Part shown: positions 1-64,000 of the stretch, in pieces
Numbering within the stretch: the first letter of the stretch is position 1
Layout of the letters: every line of letters begins with the position of its first letter
DNA from: Pratylenchus scribneri
Lineage: Eukaryota; Nematoda; Chromadorea; Rhabditida; Pratylenchidae
Direction of reading: 5' to 3'
Assembly (NCBI GenBank): GCA_030063045.1
Contig: JAQSEB010000116.1
Location: forward strand, 620,001-684,000
DNA length: 64,000 nt
Translations under genes and position numbers: made by a program
Notes under the pieces: model-generated
What the model was told of the DNA's origin: nothing
What the model saw: only the letters and a program-made list of their open reading frames with translations
The model's database searches: none

Positions 1-1236
1 TTGTGATTGGGAAAGGAGGATGGAAGGGAAGGGTGATGGAGCTAGGCCAACAATTGCGTAAGGATGCGAAGCAATTCCCAAGAAAAAATGGAAAATGCTA
101 ATGAGGGTCGAACAGACTAAGCAGAAGGGAAGGGAATATGGCTTTTTGGCAAAATCGAATGGGAAAAGGGACATTGAACATAAATAATCGCTTAGAGCGG
201 AAGCGAATTATTTGAGCAAAATTGAGCGGGCAATGCGCAGAGTTTGGGAGAAGGAGGATGATGGAATTGGAAAAGGCCCTAAATTGAGAAAATGAATATT
301 AAGGAAGAAGGGAATTCAGGATTATGAAAAAGAGAGGAAAGGGACCCGTACGGGGCTCCAATTGTCGCCCGGGGCCAAATTTTGGGAGGTTGGCCAACCC
401 CGCCGGCCGGGAGGTCCGGAGCTTCCCCCTGCCTCGGAAGGGGGCCCGGGTGGGACATTGATGCCGGTTTAAGACCGAATTGGGGGTGGGGGCTCCACCC
501 AGTCATTGTTGATGGGGACTGGGACCCAAAGGTCAAAATGGGCCAAATCCCTGATGATTCGGCATAAGTGGGTAAGGGGTAGCTTGGAAGGAAGATCGGA
601 GAATCAAACCGGAGGAATTGAGGACTGGGAGAGTGGGGAAAGGAAAAGGAAGAGGGTAGGACGGCATAAAAGCCTGATGAAGAAGGGGGGATAATCAGTG
701 GGGATTCTGATTAATCCCACCGGAGGGGGAGATTATCGGTGGGAATTCCGATTAATCTCGCTGACGGGGGGCGGCTGACTGGCCCTGAGGATGGAATGCT
801 CTCACCTAGAATTTCTCCACCCCAACTATATTTTGCCCCATACAATAGAGTTTTAATTAACAGTTTATCGCCGCCAAATATTAAAAAATGCCACAAAATG
901 ATAAAAAGGGGTGTTTTTTGGGCAAGGATTCTGGCACATTGGCAAAAATGAAGGCAGCGGACGGTGTTGGGGCAGGCGAGCTGAACGGGGGAGGAAAAAC
1001 TAGAAGAACATTCGGAGAAGTGTTGGCCCGAGAAAGGTGGGGGGAAATCGCCAAGTGTTGGGGGAGGCGGAGTTAGGAAGGTGGGCTCTTCCTTCAACCA
1101 ATGGCTGAAGGAGAAAAGCGAGGGGCCCCGCGAGCCCAAATCCTTCCTACCATATCCTCAAATCGCTTTAGCGACAATTGTGTTTAATAACTTTAGTTTT
1201 AGTTTATGCACTAATTATTATGGGGAGCGCGAGTTA
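1..1236. other. Left-edge region, no gene recognised
   Basis: I see no convincing gene here. Short open stretches exist on both strands, but none has splice-supported continuity or recognisable similarity. Positions 340-480 are locally GC-rich. Positions 700-760 hold a small tandem-like pair of segments resembling GGGGATTCTGATTAATC (near 700 and 740). The segment could contain the 3' end of a gene lying to the left. Confidence 0.4.
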
Positions 1237-1432
1237 ATGTCCTTTGAAGAATTAGAAAGAGAATTATCATATGTCTATCGGTATGATCCAATATATTGTA
1301 TTTTTTTTATTACTACTACTGGTTTCTTTTTTTAGTACCATAAAAATTGTCACAGATGAACTGCCACGTGATAAAGAATGGGCAACATATCTTTATGAAG
1401 AATTTCATCGCAAACCTCGAGATTTCAAGTAA
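1237..1432 (+). CDS. Possible small two-exon gene, 46-residue protein of unknown function
   Basis: Two exons, 1237-1280 and 1336-1432, join across a 55-bp GT-AG intron (GTATGATCC to TTTTTTTAG) and keep frame to a TAA stop. The protein starts MSFEELERELSYVYR and ends EEFHRKPRDFK. It is rich in charged and aromatic residues and has no signal peptide or membrane segment. The intron length matches other introns in the window, and the downstream exon would be closed without the splice. It lies 290 bp upstream of APRT on the same strand. I do not recognise the family. It may be a mitochondrial or assembly-factor-like micro-protein, or the last exons of a longer gene. Seen: two exons in phase. Inferred: that it is real. 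Confidence 0.4.
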
Positions 1433-1724
1433 ATTGATCTTTTTATCAATTTTTACATCCCAACTGGGTGGTGAGAAAGTTTGACGCATTCATAACTTTT
1501 AAACTATTTAGAACCATTTCTCAACCATTATTGAAGGGTTTTTATTGAATGTTTTATTTCAGAAATAGTTTAGGGCTGCGGGCTGCGGCTGCTCCAATTT
1601 TTTTTATCAATTAATTTCCATTTCTATCTTTTATTCATTCATTCGTTATCAATTATCAATCATAAAAATGATAAAATTTAATATTTTAGTGAAAAATAAA
1701 TAAAACATTTCACCAATTTTTAGC

Positions 1725-9293: not shown

Positions 9294-12200
9294 TTAAAAT
9301 ACATCAGTTTGGGGTCCACATGCAAATTTTCCTTCTTCATAGATCAAATTGTAGGGCATGCAGCAGGAGGGTTGCGGATATTGGCAAACTCCAATGTTGC
9401 ATGGTTCTGTCACTTTGTATTCACCTCTGTGGAATTTAGGACATTTAAGGAATTGTTTTCAAAAATAAAATCCGCCTGCAGGAAACAAGACGTTTCTCAA
9501 TACCGTTGATTCGATACCTGGGCTATTCTTTTGGCCATAGCTTAACAAGGAAGTAGCCAATTTGGGAAGGCTATATGCCATTTTAAAGCTTTAAATATAA
9601 TTTTTGAAAATTTAAATAATTTTTGAAATAATCTACTTCTCCTCTAAAAATTTGGGTTTATTACACTCAAAAACATATAAATATTTCACAGATGTGAAAT
9701 TTATAGAAATTTTATAGCCACTTTGCAGAGGACATTTAGAGCTTTCGAATGATATACACCTTCCTAGATTGGTTATTGCCTCGCAGAGTTATGGGCCAAA
9801 AACGGATACAGCTATTGTATTGGCATCAATACCGCCATTTTAGTATCTGAACTCTTCTTTTGGTCATAATTCAACAAGGAGGCTACTAATTTCGGAAGGC
9901 GATATAATATTTGAAAGCCCTAAATCTCCTCTAAAAAGTGGCCTAATTTTTAGAAAATTTTAAAAATTTGTAAAATTTTTGAAATAATCTACTTTTTAAC
10001 CTAAAAATTTGGGTTTTTACACCCAAAAACATATAATATTTCACAGATGTGTAATTTATAGAAATTTTATAGCCACTTTGCAGAGGACATTTTAGGCTTT
10101 AAAATGGTATATCGCCTTCGCAGATTGGTTAGAGCCTAGCTGAGTTATGGCCAAAAACGGATGGCAATTACTGTATTGGTAGTATTGAAACGTCTCCTAT
10201 CGCCGCAGGCAATGAAGAATGAACTCACAAACAAGGACATCCTTTCCCATGTTTGAATGATTTGCATTCCCTGGTTCGTTGCACCATCCCACATGCCCCA
10301 CATTCAGCCGTACATGGCCCAGTTTCACGCCACTCACTCCATTGGCCTGGATTACCATTGCAATTTGGGCCCATTGAATTATTGATGTTGCCATTTCCAT
10401 TTGATGGGATTGGAAGGGATGGGCCATTAGGCGGTGGACTCGTTCCTTGATCCACAGAAGGGGAAGGAATGGACGTTGTTGTTGTGGCTTCTGATTCCTC
10501 TGCCAACGATGAAGACGTTGTAGAGATCTCATTTGATGTTTCATTCGGATTCGGTTGTCCACCGTTTTGACCTTCTTGACTGTTGGTTGGCCCTTGCCCA
10601 TTTGGCGGTGGAATTTGCCCTCCGGGGCCATTTGGTGGAAACATTGGTCCTCCGGGGCCATTTTCAGCTCCACCTTGGTCATTTCCTGGAATAAAATTAG
10701 GTTGTCCTCCTGGCACGAATGGTGGCCCATTTGGTGGTCCAATCGGCCTTCCTTGGCCATTGTTTGGCGGTCCCATCGGCCCTCCTGGGCCATTTTTCTC
10801 AGGAAGCAATCCTTCTCCTTCATCTGACTTTGGGTTTTGTCCTCCTTCTTCTTTAGGTCCTTTTTGTCCATCACCAACTTCTCTCGTAGTATTTCCATCA
10901 TTTTCTGGTCCTTCATCGCCTACTTCCAGACTTTTCTCGTCTCCTTCCTCATTTTGACCTGAAAAATGGTTCAAAAATAAATTCAAATTTAACCAAATTT
11001 TTATGTGAGATATTTTTGGCTTTGCTTCATTCAAATTGGAACTTCACCAAATTTGACCAATTCCGGGCTTTCCACCCGGAGAATTTGTCATCGTTTTGAT
11101 CTTAATAATCCTTGGATAAGTAATATTACTATTTTCTGTTTTGGTTGATGGTGGAGGAAGTTGTGTGGTTGTCTGCTCCTCATCATCACTATCATCTTCC
11201 TCATCTTCGCCAACTTCTTCACCACCACCCAAAGGATTTGTCGCATTAGTTGTGCCAACAATTGGAGGAGTTGGCAATGTTGTTGACTCATCGCTTTCAT
11301 CCTCTTCTTCATCTTCTCCAATTTCACCCAATTTTCCATGCTCTCCAGGGGTAATAGTCGTTCCATTCCCTGGCAATCCACCCAAATCAGAAGTAGGAGG
11401 TGGTGGAATTTGGGTGGTGGCTTTGCCCTCATCACTCTCATCTGAATCCTCTTTCAAATCTTCGCCTTCTTCTTCAGGGATTCGAGTTACGTTTTCAGCC
11501 ATTTCTTCAGGAATTCGAGTTGTATTTTCGGCGATTTCTTCAAGGATTTTAGTTGTGTTTTCAGCCATTGTTGTGCCATTCCCCATTATACCACCTTCAA
11601 TGACTGAAATTGTTGAATTTCCGGGAGGCAATGCCGTAGTGGATTCTTCTTCATCGCTTTCTTCCACATCGTCTCCAACTCCATCTCCTTCTTTTCCAAT
11701 AGGAGGAAGGGTACTCGTTGCATTTGTTCCAACTAATTCGCCCAATTCAGTTGGAGGCGATGGAATTTGGGTGGCGGCTTTTTCTTCATCACTTTCTTCC
11801 ACATCGTCCCCAACTTCATCCCCTCCCTTCCCTGTTGGAGGAAGAGGAGTTGTTGTTCCAAATGGTGATGGTATTTGGGTACCTTCCGCGCCTTCATCAG
11901 CAATTCCAGTGGAATTTTCAATTGGATTAGGCGTTGTAGAAGTGTCATTTCCTGGCTTTTCTGTTTTCCTTTCAGTGCCATTTTTTCCTTCATCTTCGTC
12001 ATTTTCCTCTTCATCCCCTCCGACTTCTTCACCTCCTTTACGTCCAGCAGAGGGTGGAAGTGGAGTTGTGCCATTCATCGTTTCGGTGCCATTTGCGATG
12101 GGTGGCGGTGAAATTTGTGTGCCCTCCTCATCTGAGGCATTCTCCGCTTCATCTTCTCCAAACTCTTCTCTTCCTTTATCAATTTCTGTACTATTTTTCG

Positions 12201-15200
12201 GTGGATTTAAACCGGGGATAATTTCGCCTATTGGATTTGCTGTTGAATTTCCTGTAGATTCTGGTGGAATTGAAGTCGTCGACCCATCTTCATCATCATT
12301 TTCTTGTACATCATCTCCAACTTCACCTAATTTTCCATCCCCTCCAGGCGCAATGCTTGTTCCATTCCCTGCCAATTCCCCTAATTCAGAATCAGAAATT
12401 GGAGGCGATGGAATTTGAGTGGTGGCTTTGCCATCATCACTCTCATCCGAATTTTCCGGCTCATCCTCAGCCAATTCTTCAGGGATTTGAGTTGTGTTTT
12501 CAGCCATTGTGCCATTCCCAACATTTAAGGGAGGCGATGGAATTTGGGTGGTGGCTTTAGCCTCATTAGAATCTTCCTTCATATCTTCTCCTAATTCTTC
12601 CCCTAAATCTGGGCTTCCGGTTACCCCATTAGGTTCCGTTCCATTCCCCATTATACCGCCTTCAATTGTTGGAATTGTAGAATTTCCAGGAGGCAATATT
12701 GTACTGGATTCTCCATCTTCGTTACTTTCTGGTTCATCTTCTCCAAGTTCTTCACTTTGTTTTCCAATAGGTGGAAGAGGATTTGTTGCATTTCCCCCAG
12801 CCAATCCGCCTAATTCAGAATCAGAAATTGGAGGCGATGGAATATGGGTGGTGGCTTTGTCTTCATCATTCTCGTTAGAATTTTCCGGCTCATCTTCACC
12901 CAATTCTTCGGGGATTTGAGTTATATTTTCGGCAATTTTTGTGCCATTCCCAATTATTCCGCCTTCAATGGTTGAATCTGTAGAATTTCCGGCAGGAGGC
13001 AATATCGTAGATTCTTCTTCATCACTTTCCGGTTCATCATCTCCAAGTTCCTCGCTTTGTTTTTCACTTGGAGGAGGAGGGCTTGTTCCATTTCCACCGA
13101 TTCCATCTATATTTGATATTGCATCCTCACTAATTTGTTTATCTACTGCTGTTGGTCCATCTAGAGGCGAAAATGGACGGTAAGGTCTTTTCAGCATCTT
13201 GCCCAATTCTTTTGGCCATAGCTCGATAAGGAATTAACCAATTTAGGAAGGCGATATGCGATTTGAAAGCGCTAAATGTCCTCTAAAAAGTGGCTTCCAA
13301 ATTTTATAAAAATCAAAACAATTTACTAAATTAATCGGCTTTTCCTCCAAAAATTCAGATTTATTAACTCAAAGACATATACATATTACAAAAATAAGAA
13401 TTTTATAAAAATTTTATAGCCACTTTTTAGAGAGCACTTTGGGCTTTACAATGTTATATCGCCTTCCGAGATTGGTGATCGCCTCGCTGAGATATGGCCA
13501 AAAGAATGGCCTAAGTTTCTCTTACCGTCTAGTGGAGTTGGCATAGAACTATTGTTGGCTGCCGATGGCAATTCTATACTTTGAGTCGTATTTTCGGAAG
13601 AAGGTGGCATTTGTGTGCTGGATTCCGTTCCATCTTCATCGTTTTCTTCCTGCTCATCTTCTCCTACTAATTCATCGCCAATTACTGATGGTTTAGGCGT
13701 GCTCATTCCCTCTTCTGAAATTGCAGTTTCATTTCCGGATGTGCCTGGAAGTTGCGTTGTGTTTTGCACATTTTCTTCCGGCATGGGATTTGCCCCTTTT
13801 TGGCCATTTTCTTCGTCATCCTCTTCTTCATCTTCACCCAATTCATCTTTTCCTTTTTGAGGTGTTTTTTCTTTGGAAATTGCCGTCGATGTGGGCGGCA
13901 TCTTCCCTTCTGCCATTGTTCCATTGGCCTTATTCTCCTCTTCTCCATCTTCACCCAATCCATTCGAATTTCCCAAATCAAATGGCGGAGATGGCAATTG
14001 AGTTGTTGCGCCACTTTCTTCCCCTTTTCCCCCTTCATTTTCTCCTCCACTAGAAACGGGATATTTTCAGTATCGCAGTTTCAATACCTGGGCAATTCTT
14101 TTGGCCATAGCTCAACAAGGAAGTAACCAATTTGGGAAGGCAATATGTCAATAGAAAGCCCTAAATGTCCTCTAAAAAGGGGCTTTCCTAATTTTTTGAA
14201 AATTTATAATTTTTGTAAATTAACTGCTTTCTTCAAAAATCAGGCCCCTGAACACTCAAAAACATATAAATATTTCAAAAATAAGAATTTTATAAAAATT
14301 TTATTGCCACTTTTTAGAGGATACATCGGGCTTTCCAGTGGTATATTGCCTTCCAAGATTGGCACAAACCTCGATGAGTTATAATCAAAAGAATGGTCCA
14401 GTTACTAAAAGTGCGATACTGAAATGTTCCCTACCGTTCTCCATCCGGATTGGGTGAACTTGTTTCTTCCAATTCTCCATCTCCATTAGTAACATTGTCC
14501 AAAGGTGTCATTTGTGTACTGCTTCCGGCCATTTCATTCGATCTACTTTCTTCCGGTTCCGGTACATCTCGTGGATCTTCGCCTTCTTCTTCAGATTGAG
14601 GATTTGCAACCGTCGATGTTTCCTCAATTGTTGGGCCATTCTCCTCCTTATTATCCATTGTTGGGCCATTCTCCTCCTTATTATCCATTGTTGGGCCATT
14701 CTCCTCCTTATTATCCATTGTTGAGTCATTTTCTTCCTTATTATCCATTCCATTTTCTCCTTCAGATTCCCCCATTTTTGGGCCATTTTCCCTATCATCA
14801 GCCCTTTTCTCCCTTTCCGATTCATCGAAGCCATATGGCTCCGGACCATCCTCATTCATTGGATATTGCCCTTCCTCATTATTAATATTTTCTGGCCCAA
14901 ATTCTTCTCCATTAATTTGTCTTTTCACCCTATTTTTCGCTTTTTTATTTTGAATTTTTTCCAATGGATTTTTCCCCTTTTTGCCTTTAATTTTTTATTT
15001 AAATTTCAATAAAAAATAATAATGTATTACCATTTCCAGGAAGAATTGGTTGTATGCCCGCCGTAGGGCCCATCGGCTGCTTCCCTGGCTTTGATTGTGG
15101 CCCATCCGGCAGATGAATTGGACTTAAATCTTCTCCATTTTCCATTCCATTCGATTCATTTTCAAAACTATTTGGTACTTCAATTCCTTTTCCGCCTTCA

Positions 15201-16701: not shown

Positions 16702-17098
16702 TGTCAAAATGAGAATAATAATTAGAATGGAATAAAAGAAGCCGTAATTCCAGCTATTCCAGAGGAAATTTTCGGCGTGGATTTGGCCCAATCGATCGTT
16801 TGATGTATTTTAAAATGAATGATGTGGCCATATAAAGCCAGCCTATTGATGGGATGAAGCGGGCTTTTCCTTTGGCTTTTCCCTCTAAATGCATCAATAT
16901 TTGCTCATCCGGCACATACACAGCCAGTTAAGCCAAAAATGTGATGTGTTGAATACATTTTGTATAACAAAGGAGCAGTGTGGAAGGAGGAATTAAAGGG
17001 TCGAAATTATCAAAACAAAAGCTCCAAATTAGACAATTAATTAGAAATGCATTTATTTGGAATTCATTTCCCACATCCATATTAATTCCTTTGAAAAA
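16702..17098. other. Region upstream of the TSP1 gene
   Basis: Presumed promoter and 5' UTR of the minus-strand TSP1 gene. No gene or known regulatory motif is recognised. It ends at the start of the 24-bp minisatellite. Confidence 0.4.
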
Positions 17099-17099
17099 T

Positions 17100-17690
17100 C
17101 TAACCGGAAAGAATTCTGATTTTCATTCCGGAAAGAATTCTGATTTTCATTCCGGAAACAATTCTGATTTTCATTCCGGAAAGAATTCTGATTTTCATTC
17201 CGGAAAGAATTCTGATTTTCATTCCAGAAACAATTCTGATTTTCATTCCGGAAAGAATTCTGATTTTCATTCCGGAAACAATTCTGATTTTCATTCCGGA
17301 AACAATTCTGATTTTCATTCTGGAAACAATTCTGATTTTCATTCCGGAAAGAATTCTGATTTTCATTCCGGAAAGAATTCTGATTTTCATTCCGGAAAAA
17401 ATTCTGATTTTCATTAAAGAATTCTGATTTTCATTCCGGAAAGAATTCTGATTTTCATTCCGGAAACAATTCTGATTTTCATTCCGGAAAGAATTCTGAT
17501 TTTCATTCCGGAAAGAATTCTGATTTTCATTCTGGAAACAATTCTGATTTCCATTCCGGAAAGAATTCTGATTTTCATTCCGGAAAGAATTCTGATTTTC
17601 ATTCCGGAAAGAATTCTGATTTTCATTCAGGAAAGAATTCTGATTTTCACTCCGGAAAAAGTTAACCGGAAACTAATTCTGATTTTCATT
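17100..17690. repeat. 24-bp minisatellite block 1 (TTCCGGAA family)
   Basis: About 24 tandem copies of AATTCTGATTTTCATTCCGG plus AAAG or AAAC (24 bp). The palindromes TTCCGGAA and, in the AAAG variant, GAATTC recur in each unit. Because 24 is divisible by three, open frames persist on both strands, but there is no signal peptide, splice context or start context to support coding. Confidence 0.95.
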
Positions 17691-17869
17691 ATTCCTCCAA
17701 ATATTATGTGTTTTTTTCCTCCAAACATTTTGTGTTTTATCTTTTATTCCAAAAAAAGTAGAATAATATGTAAAATTATTTAAAAAGCAATTGTTTAGAT
17801 AAAATTATTAACATATTTGTTTATTTTTCCCATTCATACTTCATCTCTTCTCTGTTTTCATCTTCCTCC

Positions 17870-18112
17870 TCACTGTTGTCCGCCTTGCTCCTGATCACGG
17901 CGGTTACGGCGACGTTCATTATATCGAGCTTGGTTTCGGCGATTTCGTTCTCGCTCTCGTTCTTGACGTTGACGCAACTCATTCAAACGACGTTCATTTT
18001 CAGCCTCCAGACGTTCCACTCGTTCTTGGCGCATTTGAAGTTGCTCACGAAGACGATCCAAATATGCTTGAATGCGTTGAAGGCGTTCACGTTCACGTTC
18101 TGAATCCGACAT
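17870..18112 (-). CDS. Small Arg/Glu/Gln-rich protein, paralogue A (80 residues)
   Basis: Single-exon frame starting MSDSERERERLQRIQ and ending GGQQ. The whole chain is heptad-like and extremely charged (Arg, Glu, Gln), predicted to form one long helix or coiled coil, with no signal peptide or membrane segment. It is divergently arranged with the plus-strand paralogue at 18643, which begins MSNSERERELE and also ends GGQQ. The shared ends on opposite strands argue that both are real genes from an inverted duplication. Function unknown. A nucleic-acid-binding or structural helix is only a guess from composition. Confidence 0.6.
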   Translation of the reverse strand: MSDSERERERLQRIQAYLDRLREQLQMRQERVERLEAENERRLNELRQRQERERERNRRNQARYNERRRNRRDQEQGGQQ

Positions 18113-18642
18113 TTGTGAACGATTTGAGCTGAACTGGTAGAATTTGGAGAATTAAAAAAGCAGTTTTGAATTAAGAATAAAATAATAAAAGTGCAAAGAA
18201 TAGGGGGGAGCTGATGAGTGATGAGCCTAAAGAAGATGGCAAAAATTGAAAATTTTGAGGAAATTTTATGTATTTAGACTACAACATAACATTTGCGAGC
18301 GACGATAGGCGCGAGCGCGAAAATTTTTTGATATTTTGTATATGTATAATCTTTAAAGAAAAAAAGATAAATTATCATATATTCGCTTTGAAAAATAATT
18401 TTAAAAATAACTTTTCAAAATAATTTTCGGGGTGGAAAAAGTTCGAGGTGAAGATCGGGTTCGGGTCGGGGTTTTCGGGTTCTCGAAAATTTAATCCAAT
18501 TTATTTCCCAATTAACATAATCAATCAATCTAAAATAGGAAATCCCAATATATAGCATATTTCATTCCCGAATCCCGATTTGTATTTTACAATATAAAAT
18601 TTAAATTCCATTTTAGATTTGCAAAGTTTTATACTAAAAAAA
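18113..18642. promoter_or_regulatory. Shared divergent promoter region between the two small paralogues
   Basis: A 530-bp AT-rich spacer between head-to-head genes, so each must start transcription here. GATTTGCAAAG stands just upstream of the plus-strand ATG. No specific box is recognised; the role is inferred only from gene arrangement. Confidence 0.4.
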
Positions 18643-18915
18643 ATGTCTAATTCGGAACGCGAACGGGAATTAGAATTATACCGTCAATTAGAGGATCTTG
18701 AGCAACGTCGGGAAGAAATGAGGCGACGTGAGCAGGCAGCGAGGCAACAGGCTGAACAATTGAGGCAAATGGAAGAAGAACAACGCCAACGATGGCGCGA
18801 AGAAAGGGCTCGTTGGCGTGCAAGGCAAACGCAGGAAGAACGGCGCCGACGATGGCGCGAAGAAAAGGCTCGTCAGCGTGCAAATCGTCGTGAACATGAG
18901 GGCGGACAGCAATGA
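18643..18915 (+). CDS. Small Arg/Glu/Gln-rich protein, paralogue B (90 residues)
   Basis: Starts at the ATG of MSNSERERELELYRQ and ends ...REHEGGQQ. It contains two near-repeats of the type RRRWREEKARQRA / QRWREERARWRA, so it is longer than paralogue A mainly through internal repetition. It is highly basic/acidic with a continuous helical character and no signal peptide. An upstream in-frame extension to 18619 exists but lacks an ATG, so 18643 was chosen. It pairs with the gene at 17870-18112 in inverted orientation, and both lie between TTCCGGAA minisatellite blocks. Family not recognised. Confidence 0.6.
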   Translation: MSNSERERELELYRQLEDLEQRREEMRRREQAARQQAEQLRQMEEEQRQRWREERARWRARQTQEERRRRWREEKARQRANRREHEGGQQ

Positions 18916-19320
18916 GGATATGAGGAGGATGATGCCAAAACAAAGAAGTGACGAAAGAATGAAGAGGAAAATTAAACAAATATAATAATATTGTCTAAAC
19001 AATTGCTTTTGAAAAATTATTTTAATTCAAATTATTCAATTTCTTCGATAATAAATAAATGGTCTCTATTCTCTTAATTTTTCTTTCTAATTTCATCCTG
19101 TGTATCTTACCTGAAAACTATATTGAGAAATTTCACTAATAAGGCAGGCACCTATTTTGAACATAAAAATCCTCCTTAAAAAAGAAATACAATAGAATAA
19201 AATTATGGGATTTCATTTTGAGTAATTATGAATTCATGTAATATCGAATTAAGGGTCTAAGGCAAAAATTGATTTCACACATAAAACCATGATGATGGGC
19301 TCACATTCACAATAACCTCA
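18916..19320. other. Spacer between paralogue B and the composite minisatellite
   Basis: AT-rich; presumably the 3' UTR of the small gene followed by unique sequence. I see nothing else. Confidence 0.4.
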
Positions 19321-19329
19321 CAAAAGCAT

Positions 19330-20045
19330 TGCATACCTTACGGTTTACGGACAATCCCTAAAAATATTGCATACCTTACGGACAATCCCTAAAAATATTG
19401 TATACCTTACGGACAATCCACCTTACGGACAATCCCTAAAAATATTGCATACCTTACGGACAATCCCTAAAAAACAGTGCATACCAGACATACAATCCCT
19501 AAAAAAGCATTGCATACCACACAGACAAGCATTGCATACCACACAGACAAGCATTGCATACCACACAGACAAGCATTGCATACCACACAGACAAGCATTA
19601 CATACCACACAGACAGTCCCTAAAAAAGCATTGCATACCACACAGACAAGCATTGCATACCACACAGACAAGCATTGCATACCACACAGACAAGCATTGC
19701 ATACCACACAGACAAGCATTGCATACCACACAGACAATCCTAAAAAAAGCATTGCATACCACACAGACAAGCATTGCATACCAGACAGACAAGAATTGCA
19801 TACCAGACAGACAAGAATTGCATACCAGCAGACAGACAAGAATTGCATACCAGCAGACAGACAAGAATTGCATACCAGACAGACAAGAAAAAGAATTGCA
19901 TACCAGACAGACAAGAATTGCATACCAGACAGACAAGAATTGCATACCAGACAGACAAGAATTGCATACCAGACAGACAAGAATTGCATACCAGACAGAC
20001 AAGATTGCATACCAGACAGACAAGAATTGCATACTAGACAGAAAA
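19330..20045. repeat. Composite minisatellite with GCATACC core
   Basis: The first part has units of about 31 bp with TTACGGACAATCCCTAAAAA. It then changes to 22-bp units of AGCATTGCATACCACACAGA plus CA, and later to AGAATTGCATACCAGACAGA plus CA. The three sub-blocks share TTGCATACC. The order shows stepwise unit conversion. Open frames through it are by-products of unit length. Confidence 0.9.
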
Positions 20046-20049
20046 TCCG

Positions 20050-21247
20050 TACTTTTCATTCCGGAAAGAATTCTGATTTTCATTCCGGAAAGAATTCTGA
20101 TTTTCATTCCGGAAACAATTGTGATTTTCATTCCGGAAACAATTCTGATTTTCATTCCGGAAAGAATTCTGATTTTAATTCCGGAAACAATTCTGATTTT
20201 CATTCCGGAAAGAATTCTGATTTTTATTCCGGAAAGAATTCTGATTTTCATTCCGGAAACAATTGTGATTTTCATTCCGGAAAGAATTCTGATTTTTATT
20301 CCGGAAAGAATTCTGATTTTTATTCCGGAAAGAATTCTGATTTTCATTCCGGAAACAATTGTGATTTTCATTCCGGAAACAATTCTGATTTTCATTCCGG
20401 AAACAATTCTGATTTTCATTCCGGAAAGAATTCTGATTTTCATTCCGGAAACAATTCTGATTTTCATTCCGGAAACAATTCTGATTTTTATTCCGGAAAG
20501 AATTCTGATTTTCATTCCGGAAAGAATTCTGATTTTCATTCCGGAAACAATTCTGATTTTTATTCCGGAAAGAATTCTGATTTTTATTCCGGAAAGAATT
20601 CTGATTTTCATTCCGGAAAGAATTCTGATTTTCATTCCGGAAACAATTCTGATTTTCATTCCGGAAACAATTCTGATTTTCATTCCGGAAACAATTCTGA
20701 TTTTTATTCCGGAAAGAATTCTGATTTTCATTCCGGAAAGAATTCTGATTTTCATTCCGGAAACAATTCTGATTTTTATTCCGGAAAGAATTCTGATTTT
20801 TATTCTGGAAAGAATTCTGATTTTCATTCCGGAAAGAATTCTGATTTTCATTCCGGAAACAATTGTGATTTTCATTCCGGAAACAATTCTGATTTTCATT
20901 CCGGAAAGAATTCTGATTTTAATTCCGGAAACAATTCTGATTTTCATTCCGGAAAGAATTCTGATTTTAATTCCGGAAACAATTCTGATTTTCATTCTGG
21001 AAACAATTCTGATTTTCATTCCGGAAACAATTCTGATTTTCATTCTGGAAACAATTCTGATTTTCATTCCGGAAACAATTCTGATTTTCATTCCGGAAAG
21101 AATTCTGATTTTTATTCCGGAAAGAATTCTGATTTTCATTCCGGAAACAATTCTGATTTTCATTCCGGAAACAATTCTGATTTTCATTCCGGAAACAATT
21201 CTGATTTTCATTCCGGAAACAATTCTGATTTTCATTCCGGAAAAGGC
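20050..21247. repeat. 24-bp minisatellite block 2 (TTCCGGAA family)
   Basis: About 50 copies of the unit seen at 17100, with variable positions AAAG/AAAC, CATTCC/TATTCC and TCTG/TGTG. It abuts the GCATACC array without a spacer. Frames are open in two plus frames and at least one minus frame; one continuous plus frame spans the junction of the two arrays, which argues for chance openness rather than a gene. Confidence 0.95.
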
Positions 21248-21318
21248 TCTATTAATGCCATAATAAAATAAAATTGATCAGAAAATTAAATTAATTTTAT
21301 TCCATTTAAAAACCATTA

Positions 21319-30036: not shown

Positions 30037-37202
<7,166 letters not shown>

Positions 37203-61013: not shown

Positions 61014-64000
61014 ATGCCATTTCCTTCATGGCTATTGGCCATTATATTTGGCCTTTTCCCTTTTCTAATCCACTCCTCGTTGGCCATTTCCTATCGTTGC
61101 GAAGGTGATCAAGTGCTGATTGTCCAATCGTTTGGTAATGATTCCATCCGAATGCATTGCCAACGCCTTCAACTTTGTGGGCACAAATCTGTGGTCTGTC
61201 TTCACTTTTTATTCCTTTATTTCGCGCCGATACTGGACAATTGAGTCCAGCCGATTCAGTACCTGATCATTCTTTTGGCCATAGCTCAATGAAGCAATAA
61301 CCAATAGCGAAGGCGATAAGCCATTTTGAAGCTTTAAATATCCTCTAAAAAGTGGCTTAGTAATATTATGAAAATTTAAATCAATTTTTAAAATAAGTGA
61401 CTTTTCATCAGAAAATTTGGGTTCAACTCTTTAACAGACTCAAAGACATCTAACTTTTTTAGAACTGTAAATTTTATAAATACATTTAGCAACTTTTTAT
61501 AGGATACTTTAAGCTTTTAAAAGATATATTGCCTTCCCTGATTGGTTATTGCCTCGTTGAGCTATGGGCCAAAAACCAATGTAGGATAACTAGAATTAAT
61601 ACCTCCAAACCCTATGTCAAACATTTCCTCCCCTCCTTCCATTCCAGCGTTGCCAATATGAACAAAACCAGTCGGCATGTGGTGGCAAAACCAATTTTGT
61701 CTCCCATGTTAATCAACCAACGCCTTTGGCCCCGGTGGCGCATACTTGTTGCGAATTATTACAGGCATTGCCCGGTGCTGCCAGTCAAGCGCCCGCCCAT
61801 CCGGGCATCCCTGGCCATGGTGGGAATGATTGTTTTGTGTATGAATTGCCGGATGGCAGCACACCGGATTCACCAAAAAAGGAAAAAACGGAGAAGCCAA
61901 AAACAGCCACGGCCGAAGATGAAGCGGAAGAATTCACGCTGCTCAACAGTGTGGATCAAATTCCCTCGCAATTCGGTGATTCACCCGGACAAATTGGCTA
62001 TCGAATGCGCCTCTTCCTGTTGAGAAATAAAAGTCCACCGGTGTTATTGGTCAAAGCAATCCAACGTGTCAAGTCAGTGTGCATAGGGAGAAACAGGGCA
62101 TTTCAGTACCAATGGCCGTTCTTTTGGCCATAACTCAATAAGGAAATAACAAATTTGGGAAGGCGATAAGCCATTTGAAAGCTCTAAATGTCCTCTTAAA
62201 GGTGGCTTCTTTACTATTTTGAAAATTTAGAATAATTTAATAATAAAGCGGCTTTTTCTTAGAAAATATTGGTCATTAACCTCAAAGATATTTAACTTTT
62301 TAAAAAGGTGAATTTCATAAAAAAATATTGAAGCCACTTTTTAGAGGACATTTCGGGCTCGCCAATGGCATATTACCTTTCCCAGATTGGTTACAGCCTC
62401 GTTAAACTATGAGCCAAAAACCAATTCTGGTTTCTGCTTCCGACGAAAAAGGCCATACAGAAATGAAAATTGGGGTTGATTTTTCTAGGGACGGCTATCG
62501 TGTCACCATTTGCCGACCCCGCTGTGGTCCATTAATGAGCCATGGGCGGCCATTGGGTTCACGTGAAGGTGGTCGTAGAAAAGTTGATGGTGGAAAATCA
62601 TCGGAGGAATGGACAGCGGCTGCATGGAGTTCATGGAAGACAACATCGTTGGTTTTTTAATAGACCTATTCAAAAATTTTTCCTAGACCCAGAAATATTT
62701 AGGCATTTGACAGAACTCGTTAATGCGATTCATTAGATTATAAATTGGCTCGGTTTCAACCAATTCTAACATAGGTTTTGAACCATTAAACCAAAATGGG
62801 TTTAAGCAGTTTAATACCCTTTAATTATTGACCAAACCATCACAAATTATATACCATTCAATGCGTCTTGATCAGCTCTATCCAAAATGGTATATGGTTT
62901 TGGAATGCAGCCAACCTTTAAACCATTATAATTATTTTTGTATTATGTCCCTTTTTGGCAAATTAAATAGTATCCGCCTTCTTTCCACAGATGGTCCTCA
63001 TGGAGCACAAATATTTTGACACCTGGGAATGGGACAAAAGGAGGCGGAAGAAGCCGAAATAGAAGTGGCGGAAATGGAAGGTCAATTGAAGCGGAGGCCA
63101 GTGCCGAAGCAGGGGCCGAAGGAAATGCGGAAGCCCGAGGTGGCCAAAATGGTGGTGGCCAACAGCCATCCATTGTGAACAATGTGACCGTGATTGGTGT
63201 GGGCGGACAAGGTGGTGACGGAGGGCATGCCGTGGGAAATGCCAATTTGACGGGTGGCACTGGCCAAGGAATTGGCGTTTTGGCGGTGAACGTGAGAAAT
63301 GGAACGGATGATGATGGAGGCAAAAATGGAGGAGGAAATGGAGGAGGGGATGAAGATGAAGAAGGAAGGGGGAAGAATAATGGAAAACGAGGAAAACATC
63401 ATAAAGGAAGGAAGGGTAAGTTCGAATTAGCGAATTGCCCATTCTTTTGGCCATATCTCAACAAGGAAGCAACCAATTCAGGAAGGCAATATGCCATTCG
63501 AAAACCCTGAAAGTCCACTAAAAAGTGGCTAAACTATTTTTTAAAAATTTAAAATAATTTACAAAATAAGCGGCTTTTCCTCCAAAATTCGGGTTTATTA
63601 CATTTAAAGGTATATAATTATTTTAAAAGGGAGATTTTTACAAAAGTATAATAGCTACTTTGTAGAGGAAATTGTGAGCTTTCAAATAGTATATCGCCTT
63701 CCTAAATTAGCTTTCCTCGTTGTGCTATGGGTTTCAAAAACCATTGTGGATCTAAAAAATCGGCAATACTCAAATTGCCCCATAACCATGAGGAAATCTT
63801 TTAAATTTAATTTGTTTTCATAGGTGGCGATGAATCCGACGATGAGAATGATTCCGGGGATGGAGATGATTCTGGCGTAGATGGTGAAAAACGACATGGA
63901 AGGAAAGGGAAGAAAGGCAAAGGTAAAACAGGAAAAGAAGGAGGCGATGATGGAACGGATGAGGCAAAAAGTGATGAAGATGAAGAAGAAGAAGGAAAGG
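61014..64000 (+). CDS. qua-1: QUA-1-like hedgehog-related secreted protein, 5' part
   Basis: Exons 61014-61190, 61648-62072, 62489-62647, 62991-63415 and 63824 to the window edge are in phase, with at least 454 residues visible. A signal peptide (PSWLLAIIFGLFPFLIHSSL) is followed by a Cys-rich N-domain: YRCEGDQVLIVQSF, MHCQRLQLCGHKS, RCQYEQNQSACGGKTNFVSH, HTCCELL, GNDCFVYELPDG, GYRMRLFLL, DGYRVTICRPRCG. This Cys pattern recalls nematode hedgehog-related N-domains, in particular QUA-1. A Gly/Asn-rich then Lys/Glu/Asp-rich linker follows. The C-terminal Hog/Hint autoprocessing domain expected for QUA-1 would lie beyond the window, so the call is provisional. All four complete introns contain dispersed repeats. 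The protein is expected to be secreted; C. elegans qua-1 is needed for moulting. Confidence 0.65.
61244..61603. repeat. MITE-A copy 11 in QUA-1-like intron 1
   Basis: Lies in intron 61191-61647. Left end AGCCGATTCAGTACCTGATC, inner arms CATTCTTTTGGCCATAGCTC and GTTGAGCTATGGGCCAAAAA. Confidence 0.8.
62084..62438. repeat. MITE-A copy 12 in QUA-1-like intron 2
   Basis: Lies in intron 62073-62488. Left end ATAGGGAGAAACAGGGCATT plus TCAGTACC, starting only about ten bases from the 5' splice site. Inner arms are TTCTTTTGGCCATAACTCAA and AACTATGAGCCAAAAACC. Confidence 0.8.
62735..62975. repeat. Repeat R-A copy in QUA-1-like intron 3
   Basis: Lies in intron 62648-62990. Blocks are CAACCAATTCTAACATAGGT, AATTATATACCATTCAATGC and TTATAATTATTTTTGTATTA. 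It has the same orientation as the copy at 15655. Confidence 0.65.
63438..63745. repeat. MITE-A copy 13 in QUA-1-like intron 4
   Basis: Lies in intron 63416-63823, starting about 20 bases after the donor GTAAGTTCG. Arms are ATTCTTTTGGCCATATCTCA and TTGTGCTATGGGTTTCAAAA; the right arm is more diverged. Confidence 0.8.

Follow-up and report, generated by a model that had tools for sequence, protein, structure and literature searches.

Can a short transposable element that lands in an exon become an intron? The question is raised by a minus-strand gene in a 64,000-nucleotide stretch of the Pratylenchus scribneri genome (contig JAQSEB010000116.1, positions 620,001 to 684,000; hereafter the window), where a first-pass annotation had proposed that a 385-nt intron is one copy of a MITE family, MITE-A, and hence an introner-like element. 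Our analysis suggests that this intron, a second one in the same gene and a third in another gene are probably cases of occasional de-novo gain of the introner type, in which the element would give the donor and the repeated target or the adjoining exon the acceptor.

Introns 1 and 2 and the gene that holds them

The assembly comprises 227 Mb in 276 contigs. The window is one of three homoeologous regions that are collinear over most of their length, with 81-92% DNA identity in chained matches, and that appear to be three subgenomes or haplotypes retained in the assembly:

C116: the window
C91, 1030001-1090000: homoeologous region
C47, 2410001-2470000: homoeologous region

A stretch of about 17 kb (C116:604793-621714, its end being window 1-1714) is not represented in the chained matches with C91 or C47. 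Long tandem repeats at window 17056-21277 are open in several frames and are not coding evidence. An SL1-like 22-mer has 302 sites genome-wide at no more than one mismatch, versus 0 for the reversed control, which fits a nematode.

The gene is found in all three homoeologs, which are 83-84% identical. Its features in the window, all on the minus strand, are as follows:

14435..14984: exon A, upstream of intron 1; substitutions between homoeologs by codon position 22/19/40
14050..14434: intron 1, phase 2, GTAGGG...TTTCTAG, 385 nt
14052..14436: MITE-A copy forming intron 1, placed by end alignment with 12 genomic copies, with inverted arms
14437..14445: GATGGAGAA, candidate target copy on the left of intron 1, weak
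14043..14051: AGTGGAGGA, candidate target copy on the right of intron 1, 6/9; its AG is the acceptor
13526..14049: exon B, in frame between introns 1 and 2; substitutions by codon position 25/23/52
13161..13525: intron 2, phase 1, GTAAGA...CCTCTAG, 365 nt, a second MITE-A copy
13168..13527: MITE-A copy forming intron 2, placed by end alignment with genomic copies
13528..13535: CCACTAGA, target copy on the left of intron 2
13160..13167: CCTCTAGA, target copy on the right of intron 2, 7/8, containing the acceptor AG
11100..13160 (3' end approximate): exon C, downstream of intron 2; substitutions by codon position 89/103/205

The proposal that intron 1 equals one copy of MITE-A holds from end to end, and the 13 family copies first counted in the window, intron 1 included, were found again. 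Read on the minus strand, the intron opens with GTAGGGAACATTTCAGTATC (14434) and closes with CCCGTTTCTAG (14050), while the element runs from its left end at 14436 to its right end at 14052, with the acceptor AG directly after it. The donor had been placed at the element edge; it does come from the element's own left end, but the split is CG|GTAGG, so that two element bases (CG) stay exonic. The terminal motif GGGATATTTTCAG, noted as lying about eight bases from the acceptor, indeed starts some 8-9 nt from it, and alignment refines the right end of the element to 2 nt away. The arms of this copy (14058-14201 and 14288-14431) are 144 nt long and 72% complementary, and the predicted RNA fold is a long hairpin (-149.8 kcal/mol, z -13.15), with none of 100 shuffles as good.

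Intron 1 occupies the same place and frame in the three homoeologs, where it measures 385 (C116), 387 (C91) and 391 nt (C47), and intron 2 interrupts the same codon, in frame, with 365, 373 and 381 nt, respectively. The length modulo 3 is not kept and the frame is, which supports both splicing and gain. The spliced frame is open across the intron 1 junction in 3/3 homoeologs, in agreement with the in-phase splice noted at first, and retention of the intron brings a stop after one codon in 3/3. Substitutions between homoeologs in exons A, B and C fall mostly at codon position 3. The gene is fast-changing and of low complexity; one of its later exons has a TSP1 match (PF22195, E 0.0039) that lies under the Pfam cut-off, and an intron free of MITE-A in the same gene is 46 nt long.

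The evidence from target repeats differs between the two introns. At intron 1 the candidate repeat, in a fixed register that was chosen after looking, is equalled at 3/235 exon AG sites and at 161/3075 exon positions, and in free register it is not significant in any homoeolog (null sites 194/228, 210/218 and 213/220). At intron 2 the fixed register is equalled at 3/235 exon AG sites and 4/3076 exon positions. In free register this repeat passes in C116 (5/228 null sites) and C91 (5/218) and fails in C47 (74/220), where the right target copy, CCACTTTTAGA, may represent CCACTAGA plus three extra T.

The MITE-A family and a third site

A first look at the genome with intron 1 as the query gave 4060 candidates, 40 of which were scored. 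The introns can be aligned, from CGGTAGGG onwards, with twelve genomic copies chosen because their left ends are intact. The left end, CGGTAGG, is a 5' splice site after its CG, and the right end reads ...CCTATTTC(G/A); ATTTC(G/A) is kept in five of the 12 aligned copies, the others ending differently or ambiguously. CGGTAGG is also present in copies without a coding edge, which indicates that the motif belongs to the element.

Copy L047 has CTCTAACCC on both sides, a 9-bp target duplication as judged by eye. In a sister family with the left end CGGTGGGGG, 9-bp duplications are seen by eye in three of six copies (L051, L053 and L055) and one of 8-9 bp in L054. This sister MITE (left end CGGTGGGGGACGTTTCAGTGC; L051-L056 and other places in the genome) has near-identical ends, which together with the clean duplications in 3/6 copies suggests that it may be younger. 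Mutator-like MITEs make target duplications of 9-11 bp, and MITE-A resembles them in its long inverted arms and its 9-bp duplications. For the most part it behaves as an ordinary MITE of a Mutator-like kind, a label that draws on duplication length and on the traits of the superfamily. Most mappable copies are present in the other homoeologs too, which suggests that the family is largely older than the homoeolog split. No clean empty site was found between homoeologs; one candidate (C91:1064177-1064462), seemingly absent in C116, was rejected since C116 retains a remnant.

By way of 10 of the 45 places from a genome pattern search we found a third intron bounded by the element (intron 3), at C33:2798829. 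Two of the genome patterns were unspecific (45 places versus 68 for the reversed control, and 7 versus 55), and four others had 0 in the reversed control. The gene concerned, present on C33, C85 and C139, is taken to be unrelated to the gene with introns 1 and 2. On C33 the exon end ...EEDIIHP meets CG|GTAAGG, and the right end CTATTTCG is followed by TATCCATTC, an AG and the exon VEIPFDPFYG; both flanks are coding, in one frame. The target repeat CATCCATCC/TATCCATTC agrees at 7/9 positions and is equalled by 0/31 AG sites and 5/585 positions in those exons, the right copy agreeing at 6/9 in C85 and 7/9 in C139. A protein search of the genome recovered both exons in three contigs, each time split at this place, and the junction peptide EEDIIHPVEIPFDPFYGAP is identical in C33, C85 and C139. 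Between C33 and C85 the two exons differ by 18 and 8 substitutions (3/2/13 and 1/0/7 by codon position). In C85 the intron is 597 nt long and its left arm is broken by about 200 nt.

For intron 3 the empty site, once joined, would have the sequence CATCCAGTT, compared with CATCCCGTT after splicing; HPV is encoded by either, within an unchanged peptide HPVEI. A distant homologue, P0003 (43% identical, E 5.5e-10, source ena), reads LEIRPVEIPFDEP and is continuous across the junction, on a 1134-bp contig that may be genomic or a transcript. A closer match, P0002 (75%, jgi), reads HPGK and then runs into an apparent intron 3.

We propose the following course of events. On this view MITE-A, very common in the genome, is a short DNA transposon of the non-autonomous kind, bounded by terminal inverted repeats, that makes target duplications of about 9 bp. 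Upon sense insertion into an exon, the GT of the element may serve as donor, and as acceptor an AG that lies within the target repeat or shortly after it; the spliceosome would then excise the inserted copy as a newly made intron, leaving the frame intact. The acceptor would lie inside the right target copy at introns 1 and 2 and just after it at intron 3. Provided that the target copies of introns 1 and 2 are correctly identified, the spliced products there would gain 9 and 3 nt, respectively; at intron 3 the change would be 0 nt. As a guess, the inverted arms might draw the two splice sites close to each other. Element ends coincide with intron ends at all three sites, GT, AG and frame are kept in the three homoeologs of each (9/9 copies), and a target repeat is seen at two of the three sites (introns 2 and 3).

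Copies in older introns and competing explanations

How often MITE-A copies take this course was judged from 40 left-end matches sampled elsewhere, in batches of 14, 10, 10 and 6. One is a clear case of an intron bounded by the element (L093), one is ambiguous (L087), 33 have no visible coding edge and five lie, by reading, inside older introns (L039, L044, L045, L063 and L089); the sampling favours intact left ends and GTAAG, so these counts are not rates. The MITE-A core is in the fetched piece for 29 of the 40 (weakly for L040), absent in six and without a downstream piece in five; for L094, one of the six, the core appears in a further piece, L099. Some of the 40 look like mutual homoeologs (L079/L081 and L083/L085/L097). 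In a scan of 80 copies, homoeologs counted apart, coding at both edges was seen only for introns 1 and 2; the scan is not exhaustive, as it missed the C85 copy of intron 3 (L006), a member of its own pool. Judged by the sampled copies, intron gain by MITE-A is an occasional outcome.

Two further candidates are not clear cases. L049 was rejected, as its flanks show an upstream gene that seems to lie on the opposite strand, with no coding upstream in the element sense. At L087/L088 (C155:529097) there is a donor CC|GTAAGT at the edge and, by eye, a target repeat of 8/9, with no convincing two-sided coding. Among protein kinase exons (PF00069, at least 139 matches, 119 of 1507 candidates scored) no exon pair combined a MITE-sized gap with a contiguous profile; the nearest pairs (C50 and C39) lie 288-289 nt apart.

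Copies in older introns matter for the best of the alternatives, namely that the introns are old, that a MITE landed beside the donor of each, and that the rest of the intron was later lost while the element end took over as donor. The following older introns hold MITE-A; the lengths of non-element sequence (donor side + acceptor side) were counted on ends set by eye:

9494..10156, minus strand: older intron of the gene with introns 1 and 2, two MITE-A copies, 26+55 nt
window 31324: older intron with MITE-A, 37 + >300 nt
window 63435: older intron with MITE-A, 7+36 nt
L016: older intron with MITE-A, 10+48 nt
L035:784: older intron with MITE-A, ~6+38 nt
L039: older intron with MITE-A, 15+51 nt
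L063/L064: older intron with MITE-A, ~20+47 nt

The first of these is a counter-example to a donor at the element edge, as a native GTGAGT donor stands 26 nt before the element. It carries two tandem copies in C116 and C91 and a single one in C47. At window 30664-32134 (minus strand) protein kinase exons (PF00069) are split by an intron in which MITE-A lies 37 nt after the donor. A plus-strand Gly/Glu-rich region (window 61180-64000 and L035:1-3000) has several introns that hold MITE-A, partly beside native donors; near L035:2900 it has what we take to be a Hint-like motif, a region for which Pfam gave no match. In L089 (C155:284651-284811) MITE-A lies about 40 nt into the intron of an exon resembling acyl-CoA oxidase, YAQTEMGHG presumably being a motif of that enzyme.

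Such copies, the five of 40 and several others, often near a donor, lend the conversion of older introns some weight. However, the non-element intron sequence amounts to only 2 nt at intron 1, 7-10 nt at intron 2 and 11 nt at intron 3, versus at least 42 nt in the older introns and 46 nt in the MITE-free intron of the same gene as introns 1 and 2, and the donor at the three sites is the element's own terminal motif. When the flanks of intron 3 are joined over the target repeat the frame runs on unbroken, P0003 is continuous at this place too, and exon C contains related repeat modules without an intron, although their likeness is loose and the protein composition biased. We regard conversion as unlikely. 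Less likely still is that introns 1 and 2 are one gain copied by module duplication. They do share a gene built of repeat modules, and their mutual match of 80% is among the better scored matches, but they are unlike in phase (2 versus 1), in their flanks and in target sequence, intron 1 has matches of similar quality elsewhere (80% on C76 and 78% on C85, among the 40 scored), and intron 3 sits in another gene. That the copies are unspliced, either with open frames that are accidents or remnants in low-complexity sequence or in dead genes, is very improbable: the gene of introns 1 and 2 does change fast and splicing is read from DNA, but the junction frames stay open in three homoeologs while intron lengths shift modulo 3, with third-position bias in the exons, GT and AG in 9/9 copies and a prompt stop upon retention of intron 1.

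Intron gain by insertion of MITE-A is thus the reading that we prefer. We infer both the splicing itself, from frame and conservation, and that the insertion created an intron rather than hitting an older one. With this proviso the introner proposal of the first-pass annotation is supported as regards intron creation, at three sites in two apparently unrelated genes; MITE-A as an introner family is not established, given the single clear case among 40 and the two introns of the 80-copy scan.

Relation to known introners

Intron gain via transposons is already known in other eukaryotes. In the introners of Aureococcus and Micromonas, treated by Huff et al. in 2016, one splice site reportedly comes from a DNA transposon and the second from the target duplication. 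Those introners are reported to be far more numerous as introns than MITE-A and their elements much shorter.

Introners that derive from DNA transposons, one class of which carries a 5' splice site and co-opts the 3' one, are described in the main text of Gozashti et al. 2022 (PMC9860276). There, similarity is to start no more than 5 nt (exonic side) or 10 nt (intronic side) from either intron boundary, a family is to have at least four introns, and gene paralogy is not to explain them; marks of transposition (inverted repeats and/or target duplications) are not required. At the three MITE-A sites the similarity begins, in all nine copies, at the left end of the element, of which the first two bases are exonic. 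At the 3' boundary introns 1 (2 nt) and 2 (7-10 nt) lie inside the 10-nt limit and intron 3, at 11 nt, is one over. As to paralogy, the gene of intron 3 is taken as unrelated, introns 1 and 2 share a gene, and homoeologs were not counted as independent. Three independent sites, rather than four, were found in a partial search. Transposition marks are present as inverted arms and as target repeats (by eye in L051, L053, L055 and L047, and at introns 2 and 3). The introners of PMC9860276 share with MITE-A edge-to-edge introns, inverted repeats, target duplications and a 5' splice site of their own; unlike them, MITE-A has three sites, most of its sampled copies are not introns, and it is read here from unannotated genomic sequence.

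Our literature search found no report of a nematode introner. The main text of PMC9860276 has no word beginning with nematod, and the survey PMC9169325, where it discusses missing source sequences, raises introner elements and names no nematode case. It is possible, although we hold it to be rather doubtful, that MITE-A is a nematode introner family with a CG|GTRRG donor at the left and TTTC at the right (one polarity), whose two ends let sense copies be spliced from exons and which in past bursts supplied many genes with introns.

Where the gained introns of nematodes come from is a standing question, for which MITE-A is a named candidate with a built-in donor. The case offers recognisable copies, three homoeologous versions of each site and one site at which the protein would be unchanged by the insertion. 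If MITE-A is indeed an introner family, nematode intron gains of obscure origin would have a direct source in it.
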